From: Siniperca chuatsi
Lineage: Eukaryota; Chordata; Actinopteri; Centrarchiformes; Sinipercidae
Direction: 5' to 3'
Assembly: GCF_020085105.1 (NCBI RefSeq)
Contig: NC_058063.1
Location: 308,501-372,500 of the forward strand
Length of the DNA: 64,000 bases
The position numbers and the translations under genes are program-made. Shown piece after piece: positions 10,124-54,057 of the stretch (its first letter is position 1; each line of letters begins with the position of its first letter). The notes under the pieces are model-generated. The model saw only the letters and a list, made by a program, of their open reading frames with translations. It was not told where the DNA came from and searched no databases.

Positions 10124-10553
10124 ACTAGAGCAACTGTGATTCTGTTTATAACACCAACTCAGGTGTGATTCATGATCATTAACACAGAATAAGTTCTAAA
10201 TAGCTTGCCAAAACACCAAAATGTAACTGATGTCAACTTTTATCTTACCTCTCTTTTGTTATGTCCTTGTATTGTGTAGCTTTTTCCTTTGGCTTTTCTT
10301 TCATCTCCTTATGATGTCCGTAAGGTGCCCCCAGACCTAAACCAGACCCAACCACATTTTCCATTGCCATTTAAAGCTTTTCCATTGAAATGAATTGAAT
10401 GGGATCATCTCCTCCGAAATTTCTCTGATACTGTGCTGTGATTTTGTGCTACATGGCAAGAAAAAACTGAAGATGTGCTCCTGTGTTTTTCTCTCTTCTC
10501 TAGGCATTTTGGATCCCCCTCACTGCTCACAGCAGGCCCTGTTCTGAGTGGCC

Positions 10554-20905: not shown

Positions 20906-21053
20906 TTTACTACTACTACTACTATTGTAGTCTTTACTACTACTACTACTGCTACTACTACTACAATCATTAATACTGCTGGTACTACTACCACTACTAC
21001 TATTGTAGTCTTTACTACTATTACTACTGCCACTACTACAGTCTTTACCATAG
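20906..21053. repeat. Composite ACT array, block 1
   Basis: First patch of ACT triplets with interspersed TAGTCTTTA/CAGTCTTTA 9-mers. Short, with variant triplets (GCT, ATT). Confidence 0.9.
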
Positions 21054-21626
21054 GACAAGCAGTTTTTGAATTATCTGTCTGAAAGCATCAAGAGAGCCCT
21101 TCAACTGTCTCATTCACTGTAATTTTATTTTACCACTCAGTCTCAGACAAAAACACAAATGTGCGACTTTTGAAACAATGATTTCTCAGTTATTTTTTGA
21201 CCTACAGTGTAAGCTTCATTGTGTCTTCTTTGGAGGGAAGTTTTACAAGGCTCTCTCTGTCTCTGTGCACCCTCAGGCTACACAGATACAGTTACAAACA
21301 GGTGTTGTTGATTGGCTGATTACACATCAAAGGAGTTATTTTTGGCAGTTTAGACCTTTCTGTCTGTCAGAGAGACAGATAGAGTAAGAGACTGACATAC
21401 AGACAGACAGACAGACAGACTGGAATAATTTACGACATTATGGAATTATTGTTTTTCAGGTTTTGTTCACAATGTACAAAAAATTAATTAAAAAATTATA
21501 GGGCATTCAGTTTTCCTAAAATGTTTTGTCTGTACTGTAGCCTATCCATGTCACTTGTACAGCAAAAAAATAACAGTCACTTAATCTCTGTCAGTCTGTC
21601 AGTCACTTACTCTCTATCTGTCTGTC

Positions 21627-22053
21627 TGTTGCAGTGGTAATTCTGCAGAATAAAGAAACACTCAAGGCAACCACTTGTGTTTCTGTAGGTTTACTTCAAA
21701 TGTCTGCAGATGGACTCACAGCAGCAAAACATACATCAGTATAATCTGCTCTAAATGAGTACAGACGGAAAGGAGCATCAGTTATTTATCCAGTCTTCAG
21801 GGTCGGGCTCCTCAGCCTGGGGAGTCCTAGTGTCCCTGAAGTTTGGATACAAAAGTTAATAGCATGTTTTGTAGTTCCATATCATCATTATCAATGAACT
21901 GTTCTCATCACACAGTCCAAAACAATCATATACAGATCAAGTATTGACATCAAACTTGATGTGCCTGGTACACAAAAGAGCCATAGATATATGTTATATC
22001 AGAGTCATGTCTATGTTACACAATCATTCAGTATGTTTATTCTTGCCATTACA
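21627..22053 (-). mobile_element. Retrovirus-like LTR
   Basis: Read on the minus strand this 427-base segment starts TGTAATGGCAAG and ends ACCACTGCAACA, the TG...CA ends of an LTR. Immediately upstream on that strand is a polypurine tract (AAAAAGGGAGGAAT, 22067-22054). No second LTR is seen. The plus-strand left flank is a TCTG-rich microsatellite. Confidence 0.5.
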
Positions 22054-22765
22054 ATTCCTCCCTTTTTAGCATGAAAATCATTAAAGAAAATATGCTAATC
22101 AAAACAATTAAGAACAAAGGTTAAAAGAAGGAAAGGAAAAATCAAACAATCAAACAAGTGGGAAAAAACTCAAGTGTCAGAGGGAAAAAACCCACATGTA
22201 CTTATCATTAGCTTATCAAGCAAACTTCAATATCATTAGCAGTCGTTATATCATTATAACTGGACGCAATAGAAATGAACTCAAAAAATGTAATGAGAGA
22301 CTAAATCAAAGAACTAAGTCATAAAGCATGAATCAACAGAAATGTAATCATTAGGTAAATAGCTCCAGCAGTAATATATGATTTCATGAGCATTTTATTC
22401 TAAATTCGCATCATACTTCAAAATCCATGTAATCCAATTATATGCAATTTTAGAGAGTAAAGTTCTACGGCCAGGTGATCTATCTTGTGTGCATTATTCA
22501 CAAGTGGTCTCTGGATTGGTGGTTATAGTTGTGGTTATTTGGCTCATGTTCCAAAACCTTGCTTTGGAGCCATTGTGATGCTGATGTGACATAGCTCGAG
22601 TGCAGCGCTGGTTAGTTACTTTTCTGGCAGTAGTCATTATAGTTGTATACCATGTGTTGTCTTCCAGCTGAGCTGGGATGTTGGAAAAGATGGATTACAC
22701 CTCCTTTTTGACCCCTCCTTCTTCTAGGATTAGTTGTGATTCGAATGTTTCCATTAGTGAGACTG
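22054..22765 (-). mobile_element. 3' internal fragment of an endogenous retrovirus-like element
   Basis: Follows the polypurine tract. Minus-strand sequence near 22740-22500 holds a degraded open stretch that could be the end of an env-like gene, but I cannot assign it firmly. The fragment ends at 22765, where the same TCACTTACTCTCT sequence seen before the LTR (21602) returns with TCTG repeats. Confidence 0.35.
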
Positions 22766-22782
22766 ATGACAGGATGTCACTT

Positions 22783-22815
22783 ACTCTCTCTGTCTGTCTG
22801 TCTGTCTGTCTGTCT
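22783..22815. repeat. (TCTG)n microsatellite
   Basis: About eight TCTG units. Related GACA/TCTG runs lie at 21397-21420 and 21615-21628. Confidence 0.9.
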
Positions 22816-22894
22816 CCTCTTCAACAAACTCAATATCTACTATGATTCAGCTATTTACTACCTTTTAAACTTTTTAAAATATTAAGTGTGTCTT

Positions 22895-23178
22895 TAGAAC
22901 TACGACTACTACTACTAAGTCTTTACTACTACAACAGTATTTACTACTACTGCTACTGCTACAGTCTTTACTACTACTACTACACTATTTACTACTACTG
23001 ATACTGCTACTACTACTACAGTCATTAATACTGCTGGTACTACTACCACTTCTGCAGTCTTTACTACTACTACTACTACTGCTACTACTAATACTACTAG
23101 TCTTTACTACTACTACTACTGCTGCTACTACTAATACTACTAGTCTTTACTACTCCAATTATTACTACTACAGTCTAT
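22895..23178. repeat. Composite ACT array, block 2
   Basis: ACT triplets punctuated by CAGTCTTTA and TAGTCTTTA. Ends at a Penelope-type terminal sequence. Confidence 0.9.
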
Positions 23179-23184
23179 ATAAGA

Positions 23185-23970
23185 CGGTGTAGTCCCTCAT
23201 TCGTCCAGGAATGTTCTATCGTAGAAAAGGTTTCAGTCGTAGTCATCTGGACACTGTTTTCAGAATCAAGACGTTTCGGCTCCCATCCGGAAGTCATTCT
23301 CAATTGTGAAAAAATTGGACGGGAACTGGAAATTTAAGATAATCTGAGTTACATAAGCCCTGCCCTCAGGAGGGAATCTGCCTGAGTATCTGTTAATAGC
23401 TAGTTTCACCTGAAACTGACCTAATAGTTTCAAGATGGCCCAGTGATCGGTAATCAGGCCTATTGTTCTCTGGCTGCATCTACTTCATCACTGTTAAGTG
23501 CCTGATTAGCATGTGATAGGCGTGACCAAGGTGATAATACACTCTGATAGACTTTGGGCAGATTAAATCTCAGACCACCATTTCTGTTCAAAGAGGGGTT
23601 CTCTTTCTTCACAAAAATGGCTTCCTTGACGCCCCGTTCAAACCAACTCTTCTCTCTACTAAGAATCTTCACCTCGCTGTCTTCAAATGTGTGGTTTGTA
23701 GCTTTTAAATGCAAATGCACAGCGCTCTGTAATCCTGAGTTAGAGTGTCGTCTGTGCTGATAAAGTCTTTTGTGAAGTGGCTGTTTGGTTTCGCCTATGT
23801 ACCGTTCTTTGCAGTTTTCCTCACTGCACTGAATGGAGTAGACAACATTGCTCTGTTTTTGTGTGGGTAACTTGTCCTTAGGGTGAACGAATTTCTGTCT
23901 ATGGGAGCCGAAACGTCTTGATTCTAAAAACAGTGTCCAGATGACTACGACTGGAACCTTTTCTACGACT
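23185..23970 (-). mobile_element. Penelope-like element with an open GIY-YIG domain and inverted flanks
   Basis: On the minus strand, 23903-23460 stays open for about 147 codons. It contains NVVYSIQC...ERYIGET (GIY-YIG core), LYQHRRHSNSGLQ, the FEDSEVKIL...WFERGVKEA segment and GGLRFNLPKVY, which together are the C-terminal endonuclease of a Penelope-like retroelement. The reverse transcriptase is missing. Sequences of about 70 bases (23207-23280 and 23905-23970) are inverted copies of each other and flank the coding part. The element sits between ACT array blocks. Confidence 0.75.
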
Positions 23971-24330
23971 ACAGTCTATACTTCTACTACTACTGCTACT
24001 ACTAATACTACTAGTCTTTACTACTCCAATTATTACTACTACAGTCTATACTACGACTACTACTACTATTACTACTACTACTACTACAGTCTTTAATACT
24101 CCTACACTCATTACAACTACTACTACAGTCTTTACTACTACTTCTACGACAGACTTTAATACTACTACTACTCCTATACTTATTACAACTACGACTACTA
24201 CAGTCTTTACTACTACTACTGCCACTATTACAGTCTTTACTATTACTACTACTACTACAGTCTTTACTACAACAACTAATACTACTCCTACAGTTTTTAT
24301 TACTACTACTACTACTACAGTACTGCAGTG
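23966..24330. repeat. Composite ACT array, block 3
   Basis: ACT/CAGTCTTTA array. Three nearly regular ACTCCTACA...TTACAACTAC variants occur inside it. Confidence 0.9.
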
Positions 24331-24334
24331 TTTA

Positions 24335-24900
24335 GTAGTAGTATTTGCAATGCAATGCATTTGAGCTTTAAGATTTTACAGTCATTTCATTTCAGACTTC
24401 TTTTCAGCAGTGTTTTGCAAAATCATTTCAACTTTCAGCATTCCCACGCATTTTCAGCAGGAAATGCAATTTTTCTAGTTTTTCTTATTCTTCCATAGGT
24501 TTTTTGCAACATTTCAACTCCTGCATACTTTCAGCTACAAAAACCATTCAACTATCAAAATGTACAGCTCTTTAAGGACATTTACGTTTGTAATTTTATT
24601 TTATATACCTTTAATACTTAAAGTATTAAATAAATATTAAGCTTTTTTTAACACATTTTTAGAATGTAAATCAATGGAGCAATCCTCAAATCCGCTTCAA
24701 ACATACTCCTACTTGGAAATGCTACTACTTTTGCATACTTTCACCTACAGACGTCACTTGAACTTTAAACTGGTCACAAGACTTTCAACAACTTGTATTC
24801 AGCTTTTTGATATGTTTTACAGTTTTTAAATGATCACAGTTTAAGTTGTATGCTTTTTTCAGTCCTTTTCTGAGTTTATAATGGGTGTGTATTGGGTTAG
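24335..24900. repeat. Dispersed repeat of unknown class
   Basis: The stretch with TGCATACTTTCAGCTACA and CAGCTCTTTAAGGACATTTA near 24525-24590 recurs, diverged, at 42195-42262 beside the other end of the array. Ends and class were not determined. Confidence 0.5.
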
Positions 24901-24929
24901 CTAGAGTGGATGACATCATCGCTGGGGGG

Positions 24930-25166
24930 GGGCACAATGCAAATTCCAGAATAGAATTTTAAAATAATAAAATGTAATGGTAGTGGTAATATTAATATCA
25001 ATAAAGTAATAATAATAGGAATGATACTGATCGGAATAATTTATTTATTACTAATAATAGTAATAAGACTAATAATTACAATTGTAGTAGCAGTTGTCAA
25101 GCAGGAACACAGGGGCAGCAGTTTGCCCACAATAACAGATCCAGACTCTGCAGCTCCAGAGGCAGC
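24930..25166. mobile_element. Fragment of a dispersed fish repeat (LINE-associated)
   Basis: The AATAATAATAGGAATGATA...ACAATTGTAGTAG...GAGCAGGAACAC...CAGACTCTGCAGCTCC block recurs at 49505-49665, and its first part at 19926-20005. The end merges into the ACT array. Confidence 0.55.
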
Positions 25167-28100
25167 AACAACTAACACTACTACAGCTACTACTATTACT
25201 AGTAAAGTATTTACTACAACTACTGCTGCTAATGCTAACACTTCTACTACTACAACTACTACTAAAGTATATATTACTACTACTGCTGCTACTACTACAT
25301 TCTTTAGTACTACTACTGCTGCAGTCTTTACTGGTACTACTATTACTACTACTACTACAAACTTTACTACTACTTCTAAATTCTTTACTACTACTACTAC
25401 TACTACTGCTACTACTAACACTACTACTACTTCTACTACTACTACTGTCTTTACTGCTACTACTACTACCACAGTCTTTACTTCTACCACTACTACAACA
25501 GTATTTACTACTACTACTACTGCTACTACTAACAAAACTACTACTACAACTACTATAGCCTTTAATACTACTACTACTACTACAGTCTTTCCTAATACTA
25601 CTACTACTGCTACTACAAACACTACCACTACTACTACTACAACTACTGCTACTACAGTCTTTACTACTACTACTACTACTTCTACTACAGTATTTTTTAT
25701 TATTATTGTTGCAACTATTAAAACTACTACTGTTACTACTATTACTACTATAGTATTTACTACTACTACCTCTGCTACTACTAATACTACTACCACTACT
25801 ACTACAGTGTATACTACTACCACTACTACTACTACTACTGTAGTCTTTACAACAACAACTACTACTACTTTAGTCTTTACAACAACAATAACAACAACAA
25901 CAACTACTACTGCTACTACTACTACTACAGTATTTACTACTACCACTACTGCTACCACTACAACTACTGCAGGCTTTACAACAGCAACAAATACTACTAC
26001 TACTACAGTCTTTACTACTACTAACACAATTTTTACTAACACTACGGCTACAGTCTTTACCGCTACTACTACTACTATAAACTTTACTACTACTGCTGCA
26101 GTCGTTACTACTACTACTACTACTACTATTGCAACTACTACTACTACTACAGTCTTTACTATTAGTACTATCATCAAAACTACTACAACTATTGCTACAA
26201 TTACTACAATGTTTAGTACTGCGACTACTGCTGCTAAAACTACTACTACTACTATTACTATTAGAGTCTTTACTACAACTACTACAGTCTTAACGACTAC
26301 TGCTACAACTACTACAGTCTTTACAACTACTACAACTACTACAGTGTTTAGTACTGCAACTACTGCTACTATTACTACTACTACTACTACAGTCTTTACT
26401 ACTACTACTGCTACTACTACTACTACGACTACTACTAAAGTCTTTACTTATTCTGCTACTACTACTACTAGAGTCTTTACTATTACTACTACTACTACAA
26501 TCTTTACTGCAACTACTACAGTCTTTACTGCATCTGCTACTACTATTACTACTACTACTACAGTCTTTACTACAACTACTACCGTCTTTACGACTACTGC
26601 TACAACTACTACAGTCTTTACTACAACTACTATAGTCTTTATGACTACTGCTACAACTACTACAGTCTTTACTACTACCACTGCTACTACTAATACTACT
26701 ATAGTCTTTCCTAGTACCACTGCAGTCTTTAATACTACTGCTATTACTACTACTGCTACTTTTTACTACTACTACTACTACTACTGTCCTTACTACTACT
26801 ACGACTACTACAGTCTTTACTACTACAACTGCTACTACTACAAATACTACTACTACTACAACTAGTGCTACAGTCTTTAATATTACTACTACTGCTAATA
26901 CTAACAAAACTACTACTACTACAACTACTTTAGCCTTTACTACTACTACTACAGTCTTTCCTACTACTACTACTACTGCTACTACAAACACTACTACTAC
27001 TAATACTACTACTACTACAGTTTTTACTACTATTATTGTTGCAACTAATAAAACTACTACTGCTACTACTATTATTACTATAGTATTTACTACTAATACA
27101 CTGCTACTACTAACACTTCTACTACTACAACTGCTTCTACAGTTGTTACTACTACTACTACTGCTACTACTAACACTACTGCTACTACTAACATTACTAC
27201 TGCTGTATATACTACTACTACTACTACTACCACTACTACAGTAGTCTTTACAACAACAACTACTACTACTGTATTCTTTCAACAACGACAACAACAACTA
27301 TTACTACTACTGCTACTAGTAACACTACTACTACTACTACCACTACTACTGCTGTATATACTACTACTACTACTACCACTACTACTACAGTAGTCTTTAA
27401 AACAACAACTACTACAACTACTGTATTCTTTCAACAACGACAACAACAACTATTACTACTACTGCTACTACTACTACAGTGTTTACTACTAATACTACTA
27501 CTGTTACCACTACTACTACTCTAATCGTTGCAACAACACCAAATACTACTACTACTTCTACTACTACTACAGTCTTTACCACTACTAATACAATCTTTAC
27601 TACTACTAGGGCTAAATAATTTTCTGCTACTACTACTAGTATAACCTTTACTACTACTACTGCAGTCTTTACTACTACTACTATTGCAACTACCACTACT
27701 ACTACCACAACTGTCATTACTACCACTACAGTCTTTACAACTACTGCTACAATTACTACAATGTTTAGTACTGCGACTACTTCTACTAAAACTACTGCTA
27801 CTACTACTACTACAGTCTTTACTATGACTACTACAGTCTTTACTACTACTACTACTACTAATACAGTCTTTACTGTTACTACTACAGTCTTTACTGCTTC
27901 TGCTACAACTACATCCACTACTACTACTGCAGTCTTTACAACAACTGTTACTACTTCTTCTAGTTCTACTACTTCTACAGTATTTACTACTATTACTATA
28001 GTCTACTCTACTACTACTACTACTGCAGTCTCTGCTGATACTACTACTACAGTCTTTACTTCTACTAATACAGTCTTTACTGCTACTACTACTAGTATAA

Positions 28101-28345
28101 TCTTTACTATTACTGCTGCAGTCTTTACTACTACTAATATTGCAACTACTACTACTACTACTGCAGTCTTTACCACTACTACTATTACTACTACTGCTAC
28201 AATATTTACTACTACTACTACCACTACTGTCATTACTACTATCACAATCTTTACAACTACTGCTACAATTACTTTGTAGCAGTAATTACAATGTTTAATG
28301 CTGCGACTACGGCTACTAAAACTACTGCTACTACTACTAGGAAAG
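25167..28345. repeat. Composite ACT array, block 4 (largest uninterrupted early block)
   Basis: More than 3 kb of ACT triplets with CAGTCTTTA inserted roughly every 20-60 bases, plus variant triplets (GCT, ATT, TCT, AAT) and ACA/ACAACA patches. The 9-mer keeps triplet phase. Local duplications are visible, for example a TTTCAACAACGACAACAACA segment at about 27277 and 27428. Long Thr-rich and Val-rich frames here arise because GTC TTT plus ACT, or GTA on the other strand, never makes a stop. Confidence 0.95.
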
Positions 28346-30005
28346 AGGAAAGTCTTAAGCCTACTCTTAAATATGGAGATGGTGTCTGCCTCCCAAACCT
28401 AAATTGGGACTTGATTCCACAGAAGAGAAGCTTGATAATTGAAGGCTCTGGCTCCCATTCTGCTTTTGGAGACTCTAGGAACCACAAGTAACCCTGCATC
28501 CTGGGAGCTTAGTGTTCTAGTCGGGTAATATGGTATTATGAGATCTTTAAGATATGATGATGCCTGACCATTAAGTGCTTTGAAGGTGAGGAGAAGGATT
28601 CTAAATTCTATTCTAAATTTTACAGGGAGCCAGTGCAGAGAAGCTAATATTGGAGAGATATGATCTCTTTTCCTAGTTTTTGTCAGTACACGAGCCGCAG
28701 CATTCTGGATCAACTGGAGAGTCTTAAGGGACTTATTCGGGCAACCGGATAATGAGGAATTGCAGTAGTCCAGCCTAGAAGTAATAAATGCATGGACTAA
28801 TTTTTCGGCATCATTTTGAGACACGATGTGCCTGATTTTTTAAATATTAAGTAGGTGAAAAAAGGCAGTCCTTGAAGTTTGTTTCATGTGGGAGTTAAAG
28901 GATAAATCCTTATCAAAGATAACTCCGAGGTGCCTTACAGTGCTGCTGGAGGCCAGGGCAATGCCATTTAGAGTAACTATATCTTTAGATAATTTGTCTC
29001 AGAGGTGTTTGGGACCAAGTACAATAACTTCAGTTTTGTCAGAGTTTAACATCAGAAAGTTGCAGGTCATCCAGGTCTCTAACTGGTTAGTTTCATCTGG
29101 CTTGATCAATAGATATAATTGGGTATCATCTGCATACCAATGAAAGTTTATGGAGTGCTTCCTAATAATACTGCCTAGAGGAAGCATATATAAGGTGAAT
29201 AGAATTGGTCCAAGCACAGAACCTTATGGAACTCCGTGACTAACTTTGGTATGCACGGAGGACTCACCGTTAACATGTACAAACTGATCTGATAGATAGG
29301 ATTTAAACCAGCTGAGTGCGGTTCCTTTAATGCCAATTACATGTTCCAGTCTCTGTAATAGGATGTGATGGTCAATGGTGTTGAATGCAGCACTAAGATC
29401 TAACAAGACAAGTACAGAGACAAGTCCATTGTCTGATGCAATTAAAAGGTCATTTGTAATTTTCACCATTGCTATCTCTGTGAGATGATGCACTCTAAAC
29501 CCTGACTGAAAATCCTCAAATAAACTATTGTTATTTAGAAAGTCACACAACTGATTGGCGACTGCTTTCTCAAGGATCTTAGAAAGAAAGGGAAGGTTAG
29601 ATATAGGTCTATAGTTGGCTAAAACCCCAGGATCAAAAGTGGGCTTTTTAAGAAGCGGTTTTATTACAGCTACTTTAAAGGATTGTGGTACATAGCCTGT
29701 TAATAAAGACAGATTGATCATATCCAGTAAAGAAGTGCTAATTAAGGGTAAAACGTCTTTAAGCAGCCTGGTTGGAATGGGGTCTAAGAGACAGGTTGAT
29801 GGCTTAGATGAATTAATCGTCGAAGTCAGCTGAAGAAGGTTGACAGGAGCAAAGCAGCCAAAACACTCATCAGGCTCTACAGCTGTTTCCAATGTTCCTG
29901 TGTTTGAAGACAAGTCGGCACCGGTTAAAGGCAGTATTTGATGATTTTTTTCTCTAATAGTTAAAATTTTATCATTAAAGAAGCTCATGAAGTCGTTGCT
30001 ACTGA
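28346..30005 (-). mobile_element. 5'-truncated LINE (L2/Rex1-like) with most of its RT
   Basis: Minus strand. Pieces at 30174-29224, 29217-28999 and 28824-28399 follow one another through the reverse transcriptase: [43 protein letters not shown] then [14 protein letters not shown], and the catalytic YADD box ([12 protein letters not shown] near 29130). A C-terminal region with SRLDYCNSSLSG follows. Frameshifts separate the pieces. The 5' end is cut at about 30005, where a gypsy gag begins in the opposite direction. It lies inside the ACT region. Confidence 0.85.
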
Positions 30006-31602
30006 GAGCTATCTGGCCACAATGGACCCAGCAGACACAAACCCGGAAGTAGCGCCATTCCACCAAGCGCTCACCATCCAAGGGATTCTCCTCGGGCAAC
30101 ACAAACAGGTTATCCGGGCACTCTCTGACAGCAACCAGGTCCTGGTTACCCAGATCACACAACTCACACACCAAGTTTCCAGGCTAACCACCCAGCTCTC
30201 AGCTCCGGTCCTTCTCGCCGACCATTCCTGCTAACACACCGTCATCGACAGCACTGCGAGACTCCTACACTTCGGATCCGGACCCCTCACAGGGGACGTT
30301 TCAAGGTGAAGGGGTTTTCTGCTGCATTGTTCCCTCGTTTTTTGCCAGCGTCCAGTGACATTCGCCTCCGACCAATCCAAGGTAAACTATATTGTGGGGT
30401 TACTCCGGGGAAGAGCGTTGGCCTGGGCTGAGGCTATGCACGCTAGCCAACTCCTTTCATCATTTTCCTTGCCGGAGTTTCTAGAAAAGATGAGGAGCGT
30501 CTTTGATCACCCAGACGGCACTGGAAATGCCAGAGGGTGACTGTTACGGATCAGCCAGGGAACCGGGAGCGTGGCAGATTACGCGGTGGAATTCCATACA
30601 CTAGCAGCCGACTCGGGATGGAATGAGAAAGCATTGATCAGTGCTTTTCAACCAGGACTCAGTGAGCAAATGAAGGAGCGCACCAGCCGTTCCCTCACTC
30701 AGCAGTCACGCAACCCGGCTTCTCTTCCTCACGCAAGACCGGGGACCCAAGCCCAGACTACGAGGTCACGTCGCAACCTCCGGCACTTCCTGAAGCCGAG
30801 CCTATGCAGCTCGCCCTGCCGTTGCCACCACACCATCCCTATGACTGCGCCATAGACCTCATCCCTGACTCCACCCTTCGATCACCTGTGCACCTGTCAT
30901 CAATTATCATCAGTCTCCACAGCATAAAGACCAGGCTCTTCCTCATCTCCAGTGCCAGATCGTCTCAGCATACCTGTACGAGCATACGTAACGGCTCCAC
31001 GCTCGACACAGCTAAGTACTGTTGTAGCTCTGTCTAGTAATCTTGTTTTTTGTGAACTCTGGTTTGCTTCTGCCGCAGACATCCCTCTCGCCGGTGATCA
31101 CAGCCACATCACCTCACGGATTTCTGCCAAACTGTTCGCCCGTCTTGTTCCGGCTCTGCCAGCAAACCAGCAGTCTCCTTGTTCTGCCAGCTAACCCGCA
31201 GTCTCTCTGCTCTTCCAGCTAACCAGCGTTCCCCCTGCTCTGCTAGCTAACCAGCGGTCCCCCTGCTCTGCTAGCTAACCAGCAGTTCCCTGCTCTGCCA
31301 GCTAACCAGCGGTCTCCACGCTCTGCCCGCTAACCAGCGGTCTCCTCGGCTCCACCTGCGACACCCCCAGTGCCACTCGGAGCCAGCTCACGCCGCTCTA
31401 CGGATCTGTTGCCGGCCTCACATCACCACCCTCCGCTCTTGGTTCTGTGCAGTCCGTCCAGGATTGGGATCACGGCTTCCTCAAGAGCTGTAGTGGACAG
31501 CTCTGGTTACTCCCTCAAGAAAAGACTGTTTGAATAAATACTGACTTATCTCCTTACTCCTGGTATTCTGCATTTGTGGGTTCTGGTTTGTACATTACGA
31601 CA
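30006..31602 (+). mobile_element. Internally deleted Ty3/gypsy element: gag, pol stub, 3' LTR
   Basis: Plus strand. A gag starts at 30022 (MDPADTNPE) with a heptad-rich segment, then, in other frames, LRGRALAWAEAMHASQLLS and SVADYAVEFHTLAADSGWNE, which are gypsy gag landmarks. Near 30805-30855 the frame reads PPHHPYDCAIDLIPD, the segment before the RT in pol, so protease and gag end are mostly deleted. The RT core and everything after it are missing too. An LTR follows, with AATAAA at 31533 and an end near ACGACA at 31602. No 5' LTR is present. Confidence 0.75.
31165..31345 (+). repeat. Minisatellite within the gypsy LTR
   Basis: About six imperfect copies of a 28-29 base unit (CTCTGCCAGCTAACCAGCGG-type core). 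Expanded repeats inside the LTR suggest slippage after insertion or a subfamily feature. Confidence 0.75.
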
Positions 31603-31840
31603 CTACTACTACTACTACATTCTTTACTACTACTACTACTACTTCTGCTATTAGAGTCTTTACTACTAATACTATTACTACTACAGTCATTACTGCTACT
31701 ACTACTGCTACCACTACTACAACTGCATTCTTTAAAGCAACAACAACTACTACTACTAATACTAATAATACTACTACTACAATCTTTAGTACTACAACTG
31801 CAGTATTTAATAATTCTATTGCTACAACACTCTTTACTAC
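31603..31840. repeat. Composite ACT array, block 5
   Basis: ACT triplets with CAGTCATTA and GTCTTTA variants between the gypsy LTR and an ORF1-only LINE copy. Confidence 0.9.
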
Positions 31841-31842
31841 TT

Positions 31843-32418
31843 CTTCTTCTTCTGTTGAGTTTTATGGCAGTTGGCATCCATAATTGTGCATTACCACCAC
31901 CTACTGGATTTTAACAGCTTCACAGTGTAAACTATTTACAGTGTCCACCCAAAGTGATCCCATGCCATAATCCATTCTATAACCCAGACCCAATTGGCTG
32001 AGTTGGTGCAAATCCTTCCCTCAATGTAACATCTAGATCTTCTCCAGATATGTCCACAACATTCAAGAATCTTCTTGCAGCGTCCAGCACCATATTAATC
32101 CTTTCCGACTTCCCCTTTATTTCAGCCACACAATTTATAACCATGGCAATAAATGCCAGAAATCGTTTCTTGTCCATACTGATGCTCTGATCATCTCCAT
32201 TTCCTTTCATCTCCTTTTCCTTTTGCATTGACACATTTCACCATTTCTCTCCATACTCTTAGCAGCTTCAGCATATGACAATCCCTTTTCTGCTCTGATC
32301 CTATTCATTTTTAGTTCCTTAATTCTTTTTGGACACTGTGCTGATCCTGTATGGTGATTTCCTTCACAGTGCAGGCACTTTGCTTGCTCTTTCTCCATTT
32401 TGCACTTCTCCACATTAC
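31843..32418 (-). mobile_element. Second ORF1-only LINE relic (Nimb/I-clade type), 5'-truncated
   Basis: Nearly the same sequence as the 3' half of the copy at 6414-7900. ORF1 C-terminus is in frames 32413-32207 and 32234-31977, ending in PIGSGL and stop, then the 3' UTR and a (GAA)n tail at 31843-31855. Upstream it breaks off at 32418 in the middle of the Cys-rich region, directly into ACT repeats. Confidence 0.7.
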
Positions 32419-32798
32419 AGTAGTTTTTACTACTGTTGCTACTACAATGTATACTACTACTTCTACTACCACTACTACTACTGCAGTCTTTACATAAACA
32501 ACTACTACTGCAGTAATAACATCAAAAACAACAACTACTACTACTGCTACTAATACTACTACTATTGCTTCAGTCTTTACTACTACTACAGCCTTTACTA
32601 CTTTTTCTACTGTCTTTACCACTATTACTACTGTCTTGTAGGCAAATACTACTACTACTACTGCTGCTACAAATAACACAACTATTACTAATGCTACTAC
32701 AATCATTACAACAACTACTACTACAGTGTTTAGTACTAATGCTACTCCTGCAGTCTATACTACTACTAATACAGTCTTGATTACTACTACTACTGACA
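32418..32798. repeat. Composite ACT array, block 6
   Basis: ACT array with ACAACA patches. A segment including GTCTTGTAGGCAAATAC (32632) recurs at 34526 in block 7. Confidence 0.9.
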
Positions 32799-32804
32799 TT
32801 AAGA

Positions 32805-32982
32805 GGGTGTAGTCCCTCATTCGTCCAGGAGTGTTCTATAGTAGAAAAGGTTTCAGTTGTAGTCATCTGGACAGTGTTTTCAGAATCAAGACGTTTCAGC
32901 TCCCATCCGGAAGGGAGCCAAAACGTCTTGATTCTAAAAACAGTGTCCAGATGACTACGACTGAAACCTTTTCTACGATACT
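32805..32982. mobile_element. Empty foldback made of two Penelope-type end sequences
   Basis: Two inverted copies, 32832-32903 and 32912-32981, of the sequence that flanks the Penelope-like element at 23185-23970 (AGAAAAGGTTTCAG...CAAGACGTTT). They are separated by only a few bases, so the whole thing folds on itself and has no coding part. It is flanked by ACT arrays on both sides. Confidence 0.8.
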
Positions 32983-35900
32983 ACTGACATTGTTACTACT
33001 AAAATCTATATTACTACTAATACTACTTCTACTACACTATTTACAACTAATACTTCAGTCTTTACTAATGCTACTACTATTACTTCTACTACCAGTACAG
33101 TCCTTACTACAACAACTTCATTCTTCTCTACTTCTACTACTAAGTATTTACTACTACTACTGTTGCTGCTTCTTACACTATGACTACTACTACTACTGCA
33201 GTGTTTAGTAATGCTGCTACTACTACTACTACCACTAGTACTGGTAATACTGCAGTCTTTAATACTACTACTACTGCTGCAGTCATTACCACTACTACTA
33301 TAGCTACTCCTAGTTTTTACTACTAAAACTACAATCTTTACTACTACTACTACTACAGTCTTTATTACTACGACTACTGAAATCATTACTACTAAAATCT
33401 TTATTACTACTTCTAGGTTTTACTACTACTACTACAATCTTTACTAATCTTTAGTCTACAAAACTTATTACAGTATTGACTACCACTAGTACTACAGTCT
33501 TTACTACAACAACTGCAGTCTTCTCTACTTCTACTAATACTACAGTATTTACTACTACTACTGTTACTTTTTCTTACACTACCACCACTACTTCTACTAC
33601 TACTACAGTTTTAACTAATGCTACAACTACTACTACTAATACCACTACTACTACTGCTACTGCTGCTGTCTTTAATACCACTACTACTACTACTAATACA
33701 GTCTTTACCACTACTACTACATTCTTTATTACTACTGCTACTTAAATCATTACTACTACAATCTTTATTACTACTTGTAGGTTTTACTACTACTACTACA
33801 ATATTTACTACTACTACTACTACAGTAATTACTACCACTACTACTACAGTCTTTACTGAAACTACTACTACAGTGTTTAGTACTGCTACTACTACCAGTA
33901 CTACAGTCTTCACTTCTACTACTACTACTACTCCTACTACAGTCATAACTGCTACTACTACTGCTACCACTGCTAAAACTGAAGTCTTTACAATGACCAC
34001 TACTACTACTACAGTCTTCATTACTATTACTACTACTACTATTACTACTACTACAATATTTAGTATTACTACTGCAGTATTTAATAATTCCATTGCTACT
34101 ACAGTCTTTACTACTGTTGCTACTACTATTACTAATACTACCACTAACAGTGTATACTACTACTTCTACTACCACTACTCCTACTGCAGTCTTTACAACA
34201 ACAACAACTACTACTACTGCAGTCTTTACAACTACTACAACTACTACTGCAGTCAATACATCAATAACAACAACGACTACTGCAGTCTTTACAACTACTA
34301 CAACTACTACTGCAGTCATTACATCAATAACAACAACTACTACTGCTACATAATTAACTACTACTTCTGCTGCTACTACTAACACTACTACTACTAGTAC
34401 TACTACAGTCTTTACAACTACTACTACTACTACAGAATTTAATACTGCTATCACTGCTACTAAAACAACTACTATTGCTTCAGTTTTTACTACAACTTCT
34501 ACAGTCTTTACTACTATTACTGCTGTCTTGTAGGCAAATACTACTACTATTACTACTACCACAGTATTTACTACTACTACTGCTACTACTACTAACACCA
34601 CTAATACTAATACTACTACAGTCATTACTACTACTGCTACTACAGTGTTTATTACTGCTACAATTGCTACTAATACTACTACTATTACTACTAGTACTAT
34701 TGCTGCAGTCTTTACCACTACTACTAATACTACTTCTAGTTTTACTACTACCACAATCTTTACTACTATTACTTCTACTACGACTACTACAGTCTTTACT
34801 GCTACTACTACAGTCTTTACTACTACTACTGTCTTTCATATTACTATCAAAGTCTGTACTACTATTACTGTCTTTACTACTGCTATTGAGCAACAACTAC
34901 TGTCTTTACTACTACTACTGCTACTAGTAACACTACTACGACTACTACTTCTACTACTACTACAGTACTTACTACTACAGTACTTACTACTACGTCTGCT
35001 TCTACTGCAGTCTTTACAACAAAAAATATGACTACTACTACTACTGTATTTACTACTACTACTGCAGTTACTGCACTCACTTACAGCAACAACTACTACT
35101 ACTACTCATACTTCTACGTTCTTTGCTACTACTACAATCTTTACTACCACTGTTTAGTACTACTACTACTACTGCTACTACCAATTCTAGTACTGCAGTC
35201 CTACTACTACTACAGTATTTGCTACTACTACTTTTACTACTTCTAACATTACTACTACTACTACTACTGCTACAAAAGTGTTTAGTAATGCTACTACTAC
35301 TACTACTACCACTGTTACTGCTAGTGCTGCATTCTTTACTACTAATACTGTTACTACCTCTACTATTACTACTACTAGTCTTCACTGCTATTACTATACT
35401 CTTTACTACTACTACTACTACTACTACAGTCTTTACAAATGTTACTAAAGTCTTTACTGCTATTACTACTGCTACTACTACTACTACAGTCATTACTACT
35501 ACTACCACAGTCTTTACTACTATGACTGTCTTTACTTCTACTACTACTACTACTACAGTCTTTACTATTACTACTACCACTGTCTTTACTTCAACTACTA
35601 CACCTATTATTACTACTACTACTACTACAGTCTAAACTACAACTACTCCTACAGTCTTTACTACTACTACTAGTACTCCTCATACTACCACTACTACTTC
35701 AATCTTTCATACTACTACTACAGCTTCAATAGCTACAGTCTTTCCTTCTATTACTGTCCTTACTACTACTACTACTACTTCTATTACTACTGCTACTACT
35801 ACAGTCTTAGCTGCTACCACCGCAGTCTTTACTACTGGTACTATTGTCTTTAAAACTACTACTACTACTATTACTACCACTATTACAAAAGTTTTTACTA

Positions 35901-36430
35901 CTACTACTACTACTACAGACTTTACTACTACTACTACTACTGTCTTTACTACTTCTACTACAATCTTTACTACTACTACTACTACTAACACTACTACTAC
36001 TACAGTATTTACTACTTCTACTGCTGCTACTGCAGTCTTTAAAATAACTACATCTTCTTCTACTACTGCAGACTTTACTATTTTTACTGCTACTACAATC
36101 TTTACTACTGTTGCTACTGCTACTACTACAGCTACAATCTTTACTACTACTTAAGTGTTTACTACTACTACCTACTGCTACTACTATTACTTCTACTGCA
36201 GTCTTTACTACTGTTGCAACTACTACTACTAGTGCTACAATCTTTACTACTACTAAAGTGTTTCATACTACTACTACCACTGCTACTACAATCACTACTA
36301 CTACACTCTTTACTACTACAGCTAATATGACTACTACTTCTGCAGTCTTTGCAACAACAAGTACTACTACTACTACTACAACAGTCTTTTATAAAATACC
36401 ACTTCTACTACTACCACACGCACTACTACT
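32983..36430. repeat. Composite ACT array, block 7 (longest block)
   Basis: About 3.4 kb of ACT triplets with CAGTCTTTA. An internal duplication with ACATCAATAACAACAAC occurs twice at about 34258 and 34321. Every long open frame here (Ser, Val, Leu, Thr or Tyr rich) is low complexity. Confidence 0.95.
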
Positions 36431-36928
36431 ACTACTTTACCCTTAATTAGCACTTCTTCAGTGGATATGATCAATCTGACTTTTTTAACAGGCTATGTAC
36501 CACAATCCTTTAAAGTAGCTGTAATAAAACCGCTTCTTAAAAAGCCCACTCTTGATCCTGGGGTTTTAGCCAACTATAGACCTATATCTAACCTTCCCTT
36601 TCTTTCTAAGATCCTTGAGAAAGCAGTCGCCAATCAGTTGTGTGACTTTCTAAATAACAATAGTTTATTTGAGGATTTTCAGTCAGGGTTTAGAGTGCAT
36701 CATAGCAGAGACAGCACTGGTGAAAATTACAAATGACCGTTTAATTGCATCAGACAATGGACTTGTCTCTGTACTTGTCTTGTTAGATCTTAGTGCTGCG
36801 TTCAACACCATTGACCATCACATCCTATTACAGAGACTAGAACATGTAAATGGCATTAAAGGAACCACACTAAGCTGGTTTAAATCCTATCTATCAGATC
36901 GATCTCAGTTTGTACATGTTAACTATAC
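36431..36928 (+). mobile_element. LINE RT fragment island inside the ACT array
   Basis: Plus-strand sequence nearly identical to the minus-strand LINE at 28346-30005 but covering only the first RT blocks: TGYVPQSFKVAVIKPLLKK, NYRPISNLPFLSKILEKAV, then, after a frame change near 36710, [16 protein letters not shown]. Both ends pass straight into ACT repeats. Confidence 0.85.
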
Positions 36929-38050
36929 TTACTAGGACTATTACAACTACTACTTCTAGTCTTTACTACTAATACTACTACCGACACTACTACTACAACT
37001 ACTACAGTTGTTACTACTACCACTACTACAGTCTTTACTACTACTACTACTACTACTACCATGACAACAGTCTACTACTACTACTGCTACTACCACTAAC
37101 ACTACTACTTCTACTACTACTACTGCTACAGTATTTTAAACTACTGCTTTGACTACAGTCTTTACAACAACAACTACTACTACTACTAGGCCCTATTACT
37201 ACCACTACTACTAGGCCCTATTACTAAACTCAATCTTTACTACTCCTACTATTGCTGCTACTATTACTACTACTACTACTACTAACGCTCCTACTGCTAT
37301 TACTACAACAATGTTTAGTACATCTACTCCTTCTACTACTACCACTACTACTGCTACTGCTGCAATCTTAACTACTAATACTTCTACTACTACAGACTTT
37401 ACAACTACTGCCAGTCTTTACTACTACTACTGTCTTTACTACTACTACTCTAGTCTTTATTACTTCTACTACAGTCTGTACTACTACTACTTCTACTACT
37501 CCCACAGTCTTTACTAGTACTACTACTACTAGTCTTTAGACTACTACTACAGTCTTTATAACTAATACTAATGATAATAATAATACAGTCTTTACTACTA
37601 CTACTACTACAGTCTGTACAACTACTACTACTACGACTACAGTCTTTACTTCTTCAATCTTTACTACTCCTACTACTGCTGCTACTATTACTACTACTAC
37701 TACTACTACAGTCTTCACGACTACAACTACAGTCTTTACTACTTCTACTACTACTACAGTATTTACTACTACTACTGTGGCTTCAACTAACACTACTACT
37801 GCTATTACCACAACAGTGTTTAGTACATCTACTACTTCTACTACTACCACTACTACTGCTACTTCTGCAGTCTTTACTACTAATACTACTACTACTACAG
37901 ACTTTACAACTATTACCACAGTCTTTACTACTACTACTGTCTTTGCCACTACTATTACAGTCTTTACAACTACTACTACTAAAACTACTACTACTACTAA
38001 AGACTTTTCTACTGCCACTACTACAGTCTTTACTACTACTACTACAGTCT
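36929..38050. repeat. Composite ACT array, block 8
   Basis: ACT/CAGTCTTTA array. Two related segments of roughly 110-130 bases (about 37305-37395 and 37812-37905, AGTACATCTACT...) suggest internal duplication. Confidence 0.95.
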
Positions 38051-38510
38051 TTCAGAATCAGAATCAGAATCAGAAATACTTTATCGATCCCCAAGGGTAA
38101 ACTTTTTCGTTACAGCTGCTCACTATCACGTCAATGCACACTTGAGAATAGACGGAATAGAAGTACTAAGCAAATCAAAATATAATACACTATAATACAG
38201 GTAAGATAAATTAAATACAAAGTGGATAGTATAAACTATTACTAATAGTATAAAAGCTAAAATAAGTACAAAGTAGATTTAGAGGTTGATTAGTATGTAT
38301 GGTATAATACAATATTATAATATAAGTAATAAGTAATAGTGCAATAATGAGTACTGTCTACACGTAATGTTACGTGTAGCTGATAAACCAGATTATTAGA
38401 CGGTGTATACTGCTCAGCAGTAATATAAGTATTAATAAGTATCAATAAATAGGGAATATTAAACTGAAAACAGAGTATATTACACAGGAGTATTAAACAG
38501 AGAATATTGC
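38051..38510 (-). mobile_element. 3' end of an L2-like LINE
   Basis: Begins CAGAATCAGAATCAGAAATA then CTTTATCGATCCCCAAGGG, the inverse of a LINE 3' end with (GATTCT)n tail. The same 3' end occurs at 54058. Only untranslated sequence and a few hundred bases remain. It sits between ACT blocks. Confidence 0.75.
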
Positions 38511-39384
38511 ACAATACACTACTACTACTACTACTGCAGAGTGTACAACTACTACTTATACTACTACCTCTGCAGTGTGAACAGCTACTACTACTACTAC
38601 TACCACTGAAGTCTTTACAACTACTACTATTACTACTACTACTACTGCTGCTACTGTTACTACTACTACTACAACACAACTACAACTATAATCTTTACTA
38701 CGCCTACTACTATTACAGTTTTAACTACTACTACTGTTGCTTCTACTAACACTACTACTAGTACTTCTACTACTAAAGTGTTTATTTCTGCTACTACTAC
38801 CACTACTACTACTACTGCTGCAGTCTTTACTACTACTACTGTTGCTTCTACTAACACTACTACTAGTACTTCTACTACTAAAGTGTTTATTTCTGCTACT
38901 ACTACCACTACTACTACTACTGCTGCAGTCTTTACTACTAATACTACTACTACTACAGTCTTTACCACTACTATTACTACTACCACTACTACTGCTGTAG
39001 TCTTTACTGCTAATACTACTACTACTACAGCCTTTACTACTACTACTACTACTACAGTCTTTACTTCTAACAATACTACGACTATACTACTAATGCAGTC
39101 TTTACTACTACTACTACTACTACAGTCTTTACTTCTAACAATACTACGACTATACTACTAATGCAGTCTTTACTACTACTACTACTACTACTGCAGGGTG
39201 GTCAACTACTACTTCTACTACTACAGCAGTGTGGTCAACTACTACTTCTAATGCAGTCTGTACAACTACTACTACTACAGTCTGTAGGAGTACTACTATG
39301 GTGTTTACTAATTTTACAGTTTTTACTACTACTTCTAGTACAACTACAATCTTTACTACTACTACTACAATCTGTAGTACTGTT
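38511..39384. repeat. Composite ACT array, block 9
   Basis: Contains a near-perfect tandem duplication of about 107 bases (38730-38838 and 38838-38940, with GTGTTTATTTCTGCTACTAC) and a second of about 80 bases (39060-39095 and 39130-39165, TCTAACAATACTACGACTA). Ends into unrelated DNA at 39384. Confidence 0.95.
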
Positions 39385-45343: not shown

Positions 45344-46652
45344 TGTCACGCACTAACAGGCAGAGGACACCGAGATAGAAGGGAATGTCTTTATTGATGA
45401 TGACAGCCAGCAGTGGAGAGTGTGGAGATAGGTAGAGTGGATCTGGGGAAGTTACCGGAGGGAAGCCACAGGAGACCGGAGAGACCAAGGAGGAATGGAG
45501 AAGCCACTGAGGACTGGCGATGACACGGAGGCCTGGAGAACACACGGGGAACTGGAGAGACACAGGAACGATATGGTGCATGGAGTCCTATCCACAAACG
45601 AGGTTGGACACTGAGTGTGGAGAGTGGAGTGATTTTATCCTGGGTGTGATTGGGGCTGATTAAGGGCAGGAGTGTAATTAGGAGCAGGTGTGGGTGATTA
45701 TGGGCTGGTGAGGACATGACAGGCTGTGACAGTACCCCCTCCTCCACGGCCAGCTCCCGAGGGCCGAAACCCCCCTCCCTCCCCCCGACGCGGTGGCCCG
45801 TAACCCAGGGAGCACGCTGACCGGAGTCCGGTCTCGCCGGGTGGACGACCCAGAGCTTGGAGACGGGGGGAGATCGTCGCGGACTCTGGCGGATGACCAG
45901 GGGCTTGGAGACAGGGGGAAAACGTCGCGGACTCTGGCGGACGACCAGGGGCTTGGAGACGGGGGGAGACCGTCGCGGACTCTGGCGGACGACCAGGGGC
46001 TTGGAGACGGCAGGAGACCGTCGCGGACTCTGGCGGACGACCAGGGGCTTGAAGACGGCGGGAGGCCGTCGCGGACTCTGGCAGACGGCTGGAGACCGGA
46101 GAGGAGACTGGAGAGGAGACCTCCGGGCTGGAGACCGGAGAGGAGACTGGAGAGGAGACCTCCGGGCTGGAAGCCGGAGAGGAAACTGGAGAGGAGACCT
46201 CCGGGCTGGAAGCCGGAGAGGACACTGGCTAACTGCGGACCTCCGGGCTGGAAACCGGAGAGGAGACTGGCTGACTGCGGACCTCCGGGCTGGAAGCCGG
46301 AGAGGAGACAGGCTGACTGCGGACCTCCGGGCTAGAAGCCGGAGCGGAGACTGGCTGACTGCGGACCTCCGGGCTGGAAGCCGGAGCGGACTCTGGCTGG
46401 CTGTCATCTTAGCGGTTTCGGTCCAACCTTCTGTCACGCACTAACAGGCAGAGGACACTGAGATGGAAGGGAATGGAGAGACACAGGAACGGTATGGTGC
46501 ATGGAGTCCTATCCACAAACGAGGTTGGACACTGAGTGTGGAGAGTGGAGTGATTTTATCCTGGGTGTGATTGGGGCTGATTAAGGGCAGGAGTGTAATT
46601 AGGAGCAGGTGTGGGTGATTATGGGCTGGTGAGGACATGACAGGCTGTGACA
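45344..46652 (-). mobile_element. Non-autonomous LTR retrotransposon nested in gypsy pol
   Basis: Two direct repeats bound it: 45344-45731 and a shortened 46432-46652, both starting TGTCACGCACTAACAG and ending GGCTGTGACA on the plus strand. The 5-bp target duplication CCGTC is exact (45339-45343 and 46653-46657). A purine tract read on the minus strand (GGAGGAGGGGGTAC) abuts the repeat at 45731, so the element is in minus orientation. The body is tandem repeats of 48 and 39-42 bases. A 348-codon minus-strand frame (46437-45391) of Ser/Pro/Arg-rich repeats covers it. No gag or pol motifs. Confidence 0.85.
45840..46400 (-). repeat. Tandem repeats forming the body of the nested LTR element
   Basis: 45885-46085: about four copies of a 48-base unit (GACCAGGGGCTTGGAGACGG core). 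46090-46400: units of 39 then 42 bases (GACCTCCGGGCTGGAAGCCG core). All are multiples of three, so frames are kept through the repeats. Confidence 0.9.
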
Positions 46653-46964
46653 CCGTCCTGGTGCCCAAAACATCAAAGCAGACGCCTTGTCCCGGTTGTA
46701 CACACCCGAAGAATCCATAGAAGAACCCGAAACCATTCTCCCCAAACAACTCTTCGTAAACCCCATCCAGTGATTTCCAGTGGAAACAGCAGAATGTATG
46801 TTCAACCACATCTTCCGGTATTAAATAAAATAAAAATAAAAAATTAGGACGAAATTTAAAATCAAGTTACAAGGGGGTTTTTAATTTTTTTTCTTTCATT
46901 TTTGCTGTGTGCCAGATATCTGCTCCCTGAAGCAAAAATATGGTTGTAGAAAAGAACTAAAGAC

Positions 46965-47470
46965 ATGATTACACAGTGGCCAGTGGTCGGCTGGGGGTGT
47001 GGGAGACCTGGACATTTAAGAAGAAACGGCCATGAGCGACATTGGGGCCAAAAGGGTCCTCAAACAAGAACCAAGTGTTCCAACATCACCCCCAACAATC
47101 ACCAGAAAATGGACCGTCCAGCATATACATGGGCTCTGAGCAGAGTTACTAGGGGTGCCCAGGTGGTCTGCGGGTCAGCTGCCTATGATTTCCAAGGGGG
47201 GTGATAAAGAGTCGATGCTGTTGGTTCAAACAAAGGCAAAACATCTTCAGTGATGGAGGATTCAGGTGCAACATACATCTCCCCCGGTCTGGACAATTTG
47301 TCAAGACGCAAAATGCAGCTGATTCCCACCACAGAGCCATTAACTCTAAACATAGATAAATAACAGACACAAATATTAATATTACTCATAGCAGACACTC
47401 CTGTTAGATTATTGGGTAGAAACGCCCTATGAAAATTAAAAGTATGGTGTAGTCCGGATGGCATTTAACA
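46965..47470 (-). other. Coding-like relic of unknown identity
   Basis: A 93-codon minus-strand frame (47464-47183) with CVCYLSMFRVNGSVVGISC and a Pro/Ser-rich end, followed by a more degraded stretch to 46965 with RFFLNVQVSHTPSRPLATV. Composition is protein-like, but I recognise no family. It may be mobile-element coding or a dead gene. Confidence 0.25.
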
Positions 47471-47945
47471 GACACTTCAGATGCCTCTTAGGGCATCACA
47501 ACAATCCAAAATGAGATTGACACCTTTCAACCTTGCACAGATTATTTATTATGTTTTTTATAGAAGTGCAACACAAAGCAGGTTTAGTTTGATCTATCTG
47601 TTAATGACCTGGATTGCCTTACAGTATGACCGTGATGGATTTTCATCTGGATACCCAGCAATGGTGGCACACTGATAGAAACCAAATAAGTGTTGTTTCT
47701 GAATGTTAGTTTTATTTGTTTTATAGTGGGTGTATTGTTTAATACCTTAATTTATTTGCAAAAATAATTGTTATGAGTTGTAAGAGCTTCGTCTCCCTTA
47801 TGTCCTTGTGTGTCTCATACAAAGTCCCTAAAGAAATTTTGTTTTGGTTGGGAAACTATGCAAGACAGCATGAAACAATGGCTGCCTTTGTTAAAGCACA
47901 GATACCAAAAGCAAAGCCTCCATCATTAAATTATCACTGCAACAT

Positions 47946-49322: not shown

Positions 49323-49500
49323 TCTCTTAGACCCCATTCCAACTAGGCTGCTTAAAGATGTTTTACCCTTAGTTAACCCTTCTGTATATCTAACCTTCTC
49401 TTTCTCTCTAAGTTCCTTGAGAAAGCAGTCGCCAATCAGTTGTGTGACTTTCTAAATACCATTAGTTTATTTGGGAATTTTCAGTCAGGATTTAAAGTAA
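49322..49500 (+). mobile_element. Short LINE fragment
   Basis: Plus strand: LLDPIPTRLLKDVLPLV, then a broken piece of the LEKAVANQLCDF region (from about 49415), matching the LINE at 28346-30005 with an internal deletion. Confidence 0.7.
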
Positions 49501-53955: not shown

Positions 53956-54057
53956 GGGATCTGTATACATATAGGCCTACTGTGTATATAGGGACATATG
54001 TGTGTATTGGCATAATAACAAAGGTAACATGATGCCATTTCTGCAATTAAGTGGATA

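Follow-up and report, generated by a model that had tools for sequence, protein, structure and literature searches.

The window, by which we mean the whole 64-kb stretch of DNA analysed, contains nine blocks of ACT triplets that sum to 10,036 bp (15.7% of its length) and span positions 20908-39381. The ACT array of about 10 kb in nine blocks over 18.5 kb that an earlier note had described is therefore real. In the blocks, short in-register ACT runs are separated by a 9-bp spacer, CAGTCTTTA. Two Penelope-like insertions are located at gaps between blocks. Gene-like frames are present on either side of the array, at 10.5-12.6 kb and at 61.5 kb. The array features are as follows.

20908..21039, plus strand: array block 1, 132 bp (phase HMM and TRF)
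22899..23171, plus strand: array block 2, 273 bp
23180..23967, minus strand: Penelope-like insertion, copy 1 (13-mer junctions, Pfam and self-comparison)
23944..24318, plus strand: array block 3, 375 bp as called, the first 24 bp being the end of a Penelope-like insertion
25166..28339, plus strand: array block 4, 3,174 bp, including a diverged larger tandem duplication
31602..31853, plus strand: array block 5, 252 bp
32428..32794, plus strand: array block 6, 367 bp
32801..32978, no strand assigned: Penelope-like insertion, copy 2, short (13-mer junctions and self-comparison)
32954..36436, plus strand: array block 7, 3,483 bp as called, the first 25 bp being Penelope-like insertion
36930..38045, plus strand: array block 8, 1,116 bp, including a tandem duplication
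38518..39381, plus strand: array block 9, 864 bp, including tandem units of 105 and 68 bp

The exact 9-mer CAGTCTTTA occurs 79 times in the window, always on the plus strand and never on the reverse strand, compared with a chance expectation of 1.15 and a maximum of 4 over 100 shuffles. All 79 copies start within blocks; 78 are complete inside them, and the other begins on the final base of block 1. When the triplets of the array were shuffled, 0.96 exact copies were obtained on average, whereas the same script counted 77 in the phase segments. Two of the nine blocks (20908-21039 and 31602-31853) contain no complete exact copy. The longest pure ACT run has seven triplets, and the longest perfect period-3 stretch is 24 bp. 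Runs of at least eight ACT triplets are absent, whereas 7.2 were expected by shuffling (P = 0.001; P = 0.0005 when shuffled within stretches). The long uninterrupted motif runs of a pure trinucleotide microsatellite are thus lacking, and because no pure ACT run exceeds seven triplets, the array is not a long pure microsatellite at present. An exact 24-mer, TACTACTACAGTCTTTACTACTAC, had no match in viral and prokaryotic contig collections, a result without bearing on fish.

Spacing was analysed on 240 in-register copies of CAGTCTTTA with at most two mismatches. The intervals between them range from 15 to 153 bp, with a mode of 21 bp (36/231) and a median of 33 bp; only two are shorter than 18 bp, and 211 of the 231 are divisible by 3. 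For exact copies separated by under 400 bp, the same is true of 57 of 69 intervals. Random spacing would have contradicted the view of an organised array, and the test came out for organisation: the coefficient of variation was 0.54, below all of 2000 random placements (mean 0.80, sd 0.05, minimum 0.63). The proposal that the array keeps phase for thousands of bases was not confirmed, however, and is overstated. Phase changes 33 times within blocks, and the longest single-phase stretch is 1,598 bp (25166-26763), followed by stretches of 851, 788, 744, and 627 bp. The spacer had also been called conserved. Its per-position identity is indeed 78-95%, as calculated among copies preselected at two mismatches or fewer, but selection is not required for this, since copying of whole units accounts for it. 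Neighbouring spacers were not significantly more similar than shuffled ones (lag-1 distance 1.65 vs 1.69, p = 0.10).

Duplication within the array is evident at two scales. Of 637 array windows of 60 bp, 286 have a best match with at most nine mismatches, and 18.2% of these close matches lie 60-200 bp away, compared with 2.6% for random positions. On the larger scale, six of the self-matches listed score above 113, the highest value reached by 20 unit-shuffled nulls, and each of these six is internal to a block; no match between blocks is above the null. Block 4 contains the pairs 25777-26633/27324-28185 (score 217) and 25416-25837/26730-27172 (also above the null), and block 8 contains the tandem duplication 37259-37491/37764-37998. 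These larger tandem duplications align over approximately 0.2-0.9 kb with about 85% identity (global alignment). They are single diverged pairs, unlike a satellite higher-order structure, in which a block of several units recurs multiple times with high identity. Together with the non-random unit spacing, local copying and larger duplications make the array more organised than a simple microsatellite, as first suggested. Gaps that are not multiples of 3 make up 6 of 23 in the duplicated array segments versus 15 of 23 in other repeats (Fisher p = 0.017), or 6 per 218 substitutions versus 15 per 156 (p = 0.011). This control is small: it comprises six repeat pairs from elsewhere in the window, two of which have a stretch in common, and a single pair supplies 11 of the 15 non-triplet gaps. 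A tandem duplication at 57-62 kb, in which 12 of 12 gaps are non-triplet, was omitted because these gaps resemble sequencing errors.

Both Penelope-like copies are bounded by perfect 13-bp target-site duplications of array sequence. Copy 1 is flanked by ACTACAGTCTATA at 23167-23179 and 23968-23980, and copy 2 by TACTACTGACATT at 32788-32800 and 32979-32991, the sole two occurrences of that sequence in the window. Two positions drawn at random from the array would have a 13-mer in common with a probability of 0.0016. Copy 1 bears inverted end sequences in self-comparison and carries a GIY-YIG endonuclease reading frame on the minus strand at 23463-23975 (Pfam GIY-YIG, E = 1.9e-6). Both inserts are short pieces, and the Pfam scan covered one frame. 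Their assignment to the Penelope-like group is based on the GIY-YIG domain in copy 1, copy 2 being too short, and on the short target-site duplication in both. Because the inserts are flanked by perfect 13-bp array duplications, the array is older than both of them, and at these two breaks it was clearly split by mobile-element insertion. A bold reading would be that the Penelope-like element prefers ACT arrays: both copies in the window sit in the array, a placement with a chance of approximately 0.025. No statement of a Penelope preference for microsatellites was found among the literature matches listed.

The earlier note had taken the blocks as a single unit. All nine blocks share the same orientation and two of the eight gaps are insertions into the array, so the blocks probably formed one array originally. 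Alternatively, the blocks may have been seeded separately, for example by a repeat-carrying mobile element, and never have been one array. The remaining six gaps show no trusted junction duplication, the above-null self-matches are confined to blocks, and all gaps, except perhaps one or two, hold repeated or mobile-element-like sequence. Such seeding is nevertheless unlikely in our judgement, given the uniform orientation, the spacer and triplets common to the blocks, and the two gaps that are insertions into a pre-existing array.

We consider it likely that the locus is a non-coding, unit-based tandem array, a minisatellite of the form CAGTCTTTA(CTA)n that was amplified, aged, and interrupted by mobile elements. 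A founder unit of about 21 bp, consisting of CAGTCTTTA and approximately four CTA triplets, would have been multiplied into a head-to-tail series. Slippage may then have added whole triplets to the (CTA)n part and removed them from it, and tandem duplication or unequal exchange would have added copies of one to many units, from tens of bp to about 1.2-1.5 kb. Because slippage and duplication would each change the length by whole units or by a number of bases divisible by three, the frame would mostly be kept without selection. Later, the array would have aged by point substitution and been interrupted by mobile elements, two Penelope-like ones among them. It looks like an old repeat of an ordinary type, enlarged by unit copying and later split into nine blocks.

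We infer that the array is functionless; sequence analysis of the 64-kb window found no functional signal for it. It has been reported that short CUA and UAG repeats are unstructured in melting and that 17-repeat transcripts form hairpins (PMC9144543, as excerpted). None of 4227 Rfam families matched the window at gathering score, which bears on RNA only. Three sub-threshold RNA-family matches in 22800-24400 (E = 0.31 to 2.2) were dismissed as chance. The 9-mer could instead bind a protein or position nucleosomes and be under selection for its spacing, as the non-random spacing, the few short intervals, and the seven-triplet limit on ACT runs might suggest. This is highly unlikely, since the intervals are variable, the spacers drift freely, and the residual unit structure of decayed spacers could produce the same run cap. 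A somewhat less improbable reading, still a speculative one, is that the 9-mer serves as a built-in register and brake: the unit-copied spacer would limit pure ACT runs to about seven triplets, and the array would grow by whole units only, not as an expandable microsatellite, and persist for long enough to collect mobile elements. Interruptions are reported to reduce slippage (PMC4102424, as excerpted).

The ACT frame might also be taken for a threonine-rich coding repeat, mucin-like or antifreeze-glycoprotein-like, reading TTTTVFTTT..., with long open stretches (636 codons at 24955-26865) and with the preference for multiples of 3 in the gaps between array duplicates. Open frames come free here, however, because ACT is three changes from every stop. 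Single substitutions outside the spacers are even across triplet positions (273/242/255), with no silent third-position excess; ACT-frame stops exceed the column-shuffle expectation (13 vs 6.1; 9 vs 1.3 without spacer triplets); and the frame changes 33 times within blocks. With spacers included, stops are below expectation in the CTA frame (48 vs 103, column shuffle) and in the reverse AGT frame (29 vs 57), and in the latter the depletion is gone without spacer triplets (13 vs 11.6). The array lacks the silent-site excess and the ACT-frame stop depletion that a protein-coding repeat would show, and we reject this extremely improbable reading on the even substitutions and the undepleted ACT-frame stops.

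Open reading frames across arrays of this sort are meaningless and call for caution. If the run cap is general, such arrays would offer a natural setting in which to see how far interruptions restrain the expansion of triplets across kilobases, and would bear on why some long triplet arrays persist without runaway. At present, the locus is mainly of value as a clear and dated case of a compound repeat, in which the succession of unit structure, larger duplications, and insertions is legible.

Minisatellites are tandem repeats with a unit of roughly 10-60 bp. The present array consists of head-to-tail units of such length in one orientation (240 spacers at a median distance of 33 bp and a modal distance of 21 bp), and it is a further example of an already known repeat type, the minisatellite or compound trinucleotide repeat. 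Minisatellites and interrupted (compound) trinucleotide microsatellites share with it head-to-tail units of tens of bp, a variable internal triplet run, local duplications, and base-substitution variants. It differs from them in its length of about 10 kb, its 9-bp spacer (three triplets of register), its duplications of about 1.2-1.5 kb, its decay, and its splitting by insertions. A text search for strings of the repeat unit found no paper, and the triplet and compound repeat literature contained no such array among the matches listed, which is no proof of its absence from print.

In the excerpted text, rotifer Penelope-like elements have inverted pLTRs and 8-10 bp duplications (PMC3846280). 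The insertions described here resemble Penelope-like elements in the GIY-YIG frame (copy 1), the inverted ends, and the short target-site duplications, and differ in that the duplications are 13 bp long and both copies lie in an ACT array. Codfish genomes carry a high tandem-repeat load, indicating that extreme short-tandem-repeat loads are possible in teleosts, whereas ACT/AGT goes unmentioned in the available text of that paper (no whole-word match; PMC5894186). The antifreeze glycoprotein exon of Atlantic cod likewise contains an extended series of 9-nt units that can be reduced to triplets, but, according to the excerpt, it encodes tripeptides (PMC3441883), and the present array lacks a coding signature. 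CHeX-Sat of Xiphophorus is also a fish array termed composite and associated with mobile elements, with a monomer of approximately 2 kb that is assembled from mobile-element pieces, as described in the excerpted part of the report (PMC13277934). In contrast, the unit of the present array is, as far as seen, not element-derived, and the elements interrupt the array.

A phase model applied to the whole window found ACT-register sequence in nine blocks, which sum to 10,036 bp within 20908-39381. The earlier note's description of about 10 kb of ACT triplets interrupted by a 9-mer is thereby borne out. This spacer, CAGTCTTTA, is three triplets long and occurs in 79 exact copies, all on the + strand and starting inside the blocks, with none on the opposite strand (chance expectation, 1.15). 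A 58-bp TTC stretch (6403-6460) that the model likewise picked up is no part of the array and was left out. Tandem Repeats Finder reported period-3 arrays overlain by periods of ~18 to 149 bp in the same region, and pure (ACT)n or (AGT)n runs in the rest of the window reach at most 9 bp.

Measurement of the spacing between 9-mers, as the earlier note had proposed, revealed a non-random arrangement. Among 240 in-register spacers with at most two mismatches to CAGTCTTTA, 211 of 231 intervals are multiples of three, and their coefficient of variation is 0.54 vs 0.80 under random placement. Intervals of 18-30 bp number 107, compared with 64 under random placement (sd 6.5; maximum 85 in 2000 trials). 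The commonest interval is 21 bp (n = 36) and the commonest number of intervening triplets is four; therefore, the array unit is CAGTCTTTA(CTA)n. The consensus letter at each spacer position is kept in 78-95% of the 240 copies, which were chosen by similarity. The spacer types of adjacent copies show no significant excess of similarity over shuffled ones (p = 0.10).

Of the 2,532 triplets that lie outside spacers, 1,545 are ACT and 770 are one base away. These single-base variants are spread over the three triplet positions (273/242/255), and therefore show no silent-site excess. Stops in the ACT frame number 13 vs 6.1 expected, or 9 vs 1.3 with spacer triplets excluded. They are rarer than in spacer-inclusive shuffles in the CTA frame (48 vs 103) and in the reverse AGT frame (29 vs 57), where the deficit disappears once spacers are excluded (13 vs 11.6). 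A coding reading of the 636-codon open frame was rejected: with no silent-site excess and no depletion of ACT-frame stops, the frame is a by-product of the ACT motif.

Contrary to the earlier note, the triplet phase does not persist over thousands of bases; it changes 33 times within blocks, and the longest one-phase stretch is 1,598 bp. Several breaks fall at shortened spacers (e.g., ACTACTAGTCTTTACT at 23105, 23148, 24019, and 36964). Some may be assembly errors, because near-identical copies at 57-62 kb differ mainly by small gaps. By self-comparison, 57018-59676 and 59676-62339 are adjoining copies of a 2.65-kb stretch. One substitution and 12 gaps (1-2 bp each) distinguish them, and 8 of the gaps lie in homopolymers of at least 4, as read from the listed contexts. 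This pair, which carries an exon-like frame with a TBC domain (second copy: Pfam RabGAP-TBC, E = 1.7e-7), reflects either a tandem duplication of very recent date or an artefactual one introduced during assembly.

Larger duplications are also present. Six of the listed self-matches, each confined to one block, score above 113, the best of 20 unit-shuffled nulls, including the following (identities from global alignment):

25777-26633 with 27324-28185: score 217, 84.8% identical
25416-25837 with 26730-27172: score 132, 85.3% identical
37259-37491 with 37764-37998: score 128, 86.3% identical

The first two pairs jointly outline a tandem duplication of ~1.2-1.5 kb. A close match (at most 9 mismatches) exists for 286 of 637 sixty-base array windows, and the best one lies 60-200 bp away in 18.2% vs 2.6% for random positions, a sevenfold difference. 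Gaps between duplicated array segments are multiples of three in 17 of 23 cases vs 8 of 23 in the control (p = 0.017), a small set of six other repeat pairs of the window that leans on one pair.

The blocks are separated by the following sequences:

21040-22898: no match elsewhere in the window (self-comparison)
23180-23967: Penelope-like copy 1, GIY-YIG frame, ACTACAGTCTATA at either flank
24319-25165: three short matches to other parts of the window (self-comparison)
28340-31601: reverse-transcriptase piece (Pfam RVT_1, E = 4.4e-15)
31854-32427: 92.6% match to 6461-7029 (self-comparison)
32801-32978: Penelope-like copy 2, TACTACTGACATT at either flank
36437-36929: reverse-transcriptase piece (Pfam RVT_1, E = 3.2e-6, under the curated cut-off)
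38046-38517: 68.5% match to 54057-54489 (self-comparison)

The Penelope-like copies are pieces of one element, and begin and finish at matching element sequence. A third ACTACAGTCTATA lies at 24038 within a local duplication, and TACTACTGACATT occurs in the window only at the copy 2 flanks. The chance of a common 13-mer at two random array positions is 0.0016; hence, the array is older than both insertions. Window self-comparison found these two copies, both in the array, which occupies 15.7% of the window (chance ~0.025); with n = 2, the association is weak. None of the six other gaps has a junction duplication that can be trusted, given that short words of the array turn up repeatedly by chance. 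The two reverse-transcriptase pieces are related (95.3% match), and the retroelement-like stretch separating blocks 4 and 5 holds a 28-bp minisatellite of ~7 copies (31153-31345). Two copies of another element (6403-7029 and 31842-32427, 92.6%) adjoin (TTC)15 and, inside the ACT array, (TTC)4, respectively; we presume a likeness to TTC-associated non-LTR elements.

Elsewhere in the window, a 696-codon open frame (10548-12638, + strand) matched 0 Pfam families and presumably resembles vertebrate VGF. The stretch 45391-49342 contains long open frames and GC-rich minisatellites (unit length 24-126 bp), with related halves at 45583-46049 and 48107-48543 (68.7% match). The gene-like frames and mobile elements would be consistent with the fish origin that the earlier note assumed.

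The best reading of the array is that CAGTCTTTA(CTA)n units were amplified, triplet slippage changed the unit length, and a larger tandem duplication arose now and then; decay and mobile-element insertion would have followed. No array function emerged from the analyses of the window.

The longest pure ACT run in the array is seven triplets. Shuffles that kept the inter-spacer stretches gave 7.2 expected runs of at least eight triplets (P(maximum ≤7) = 0.001), and shuffling within stretches gave 5.4 (P = 0.0005). Among variants in long stretches, correlation is positive at lag 1 but negative at lags 4-6, as undetected decayed spacers would produce, so the unit structure accounts for at least part of the cap. 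Slippage is reported to be lower with interruptions (PMC4102424), and by analogy, such lowered slippage may be a cause of the cap in the array.
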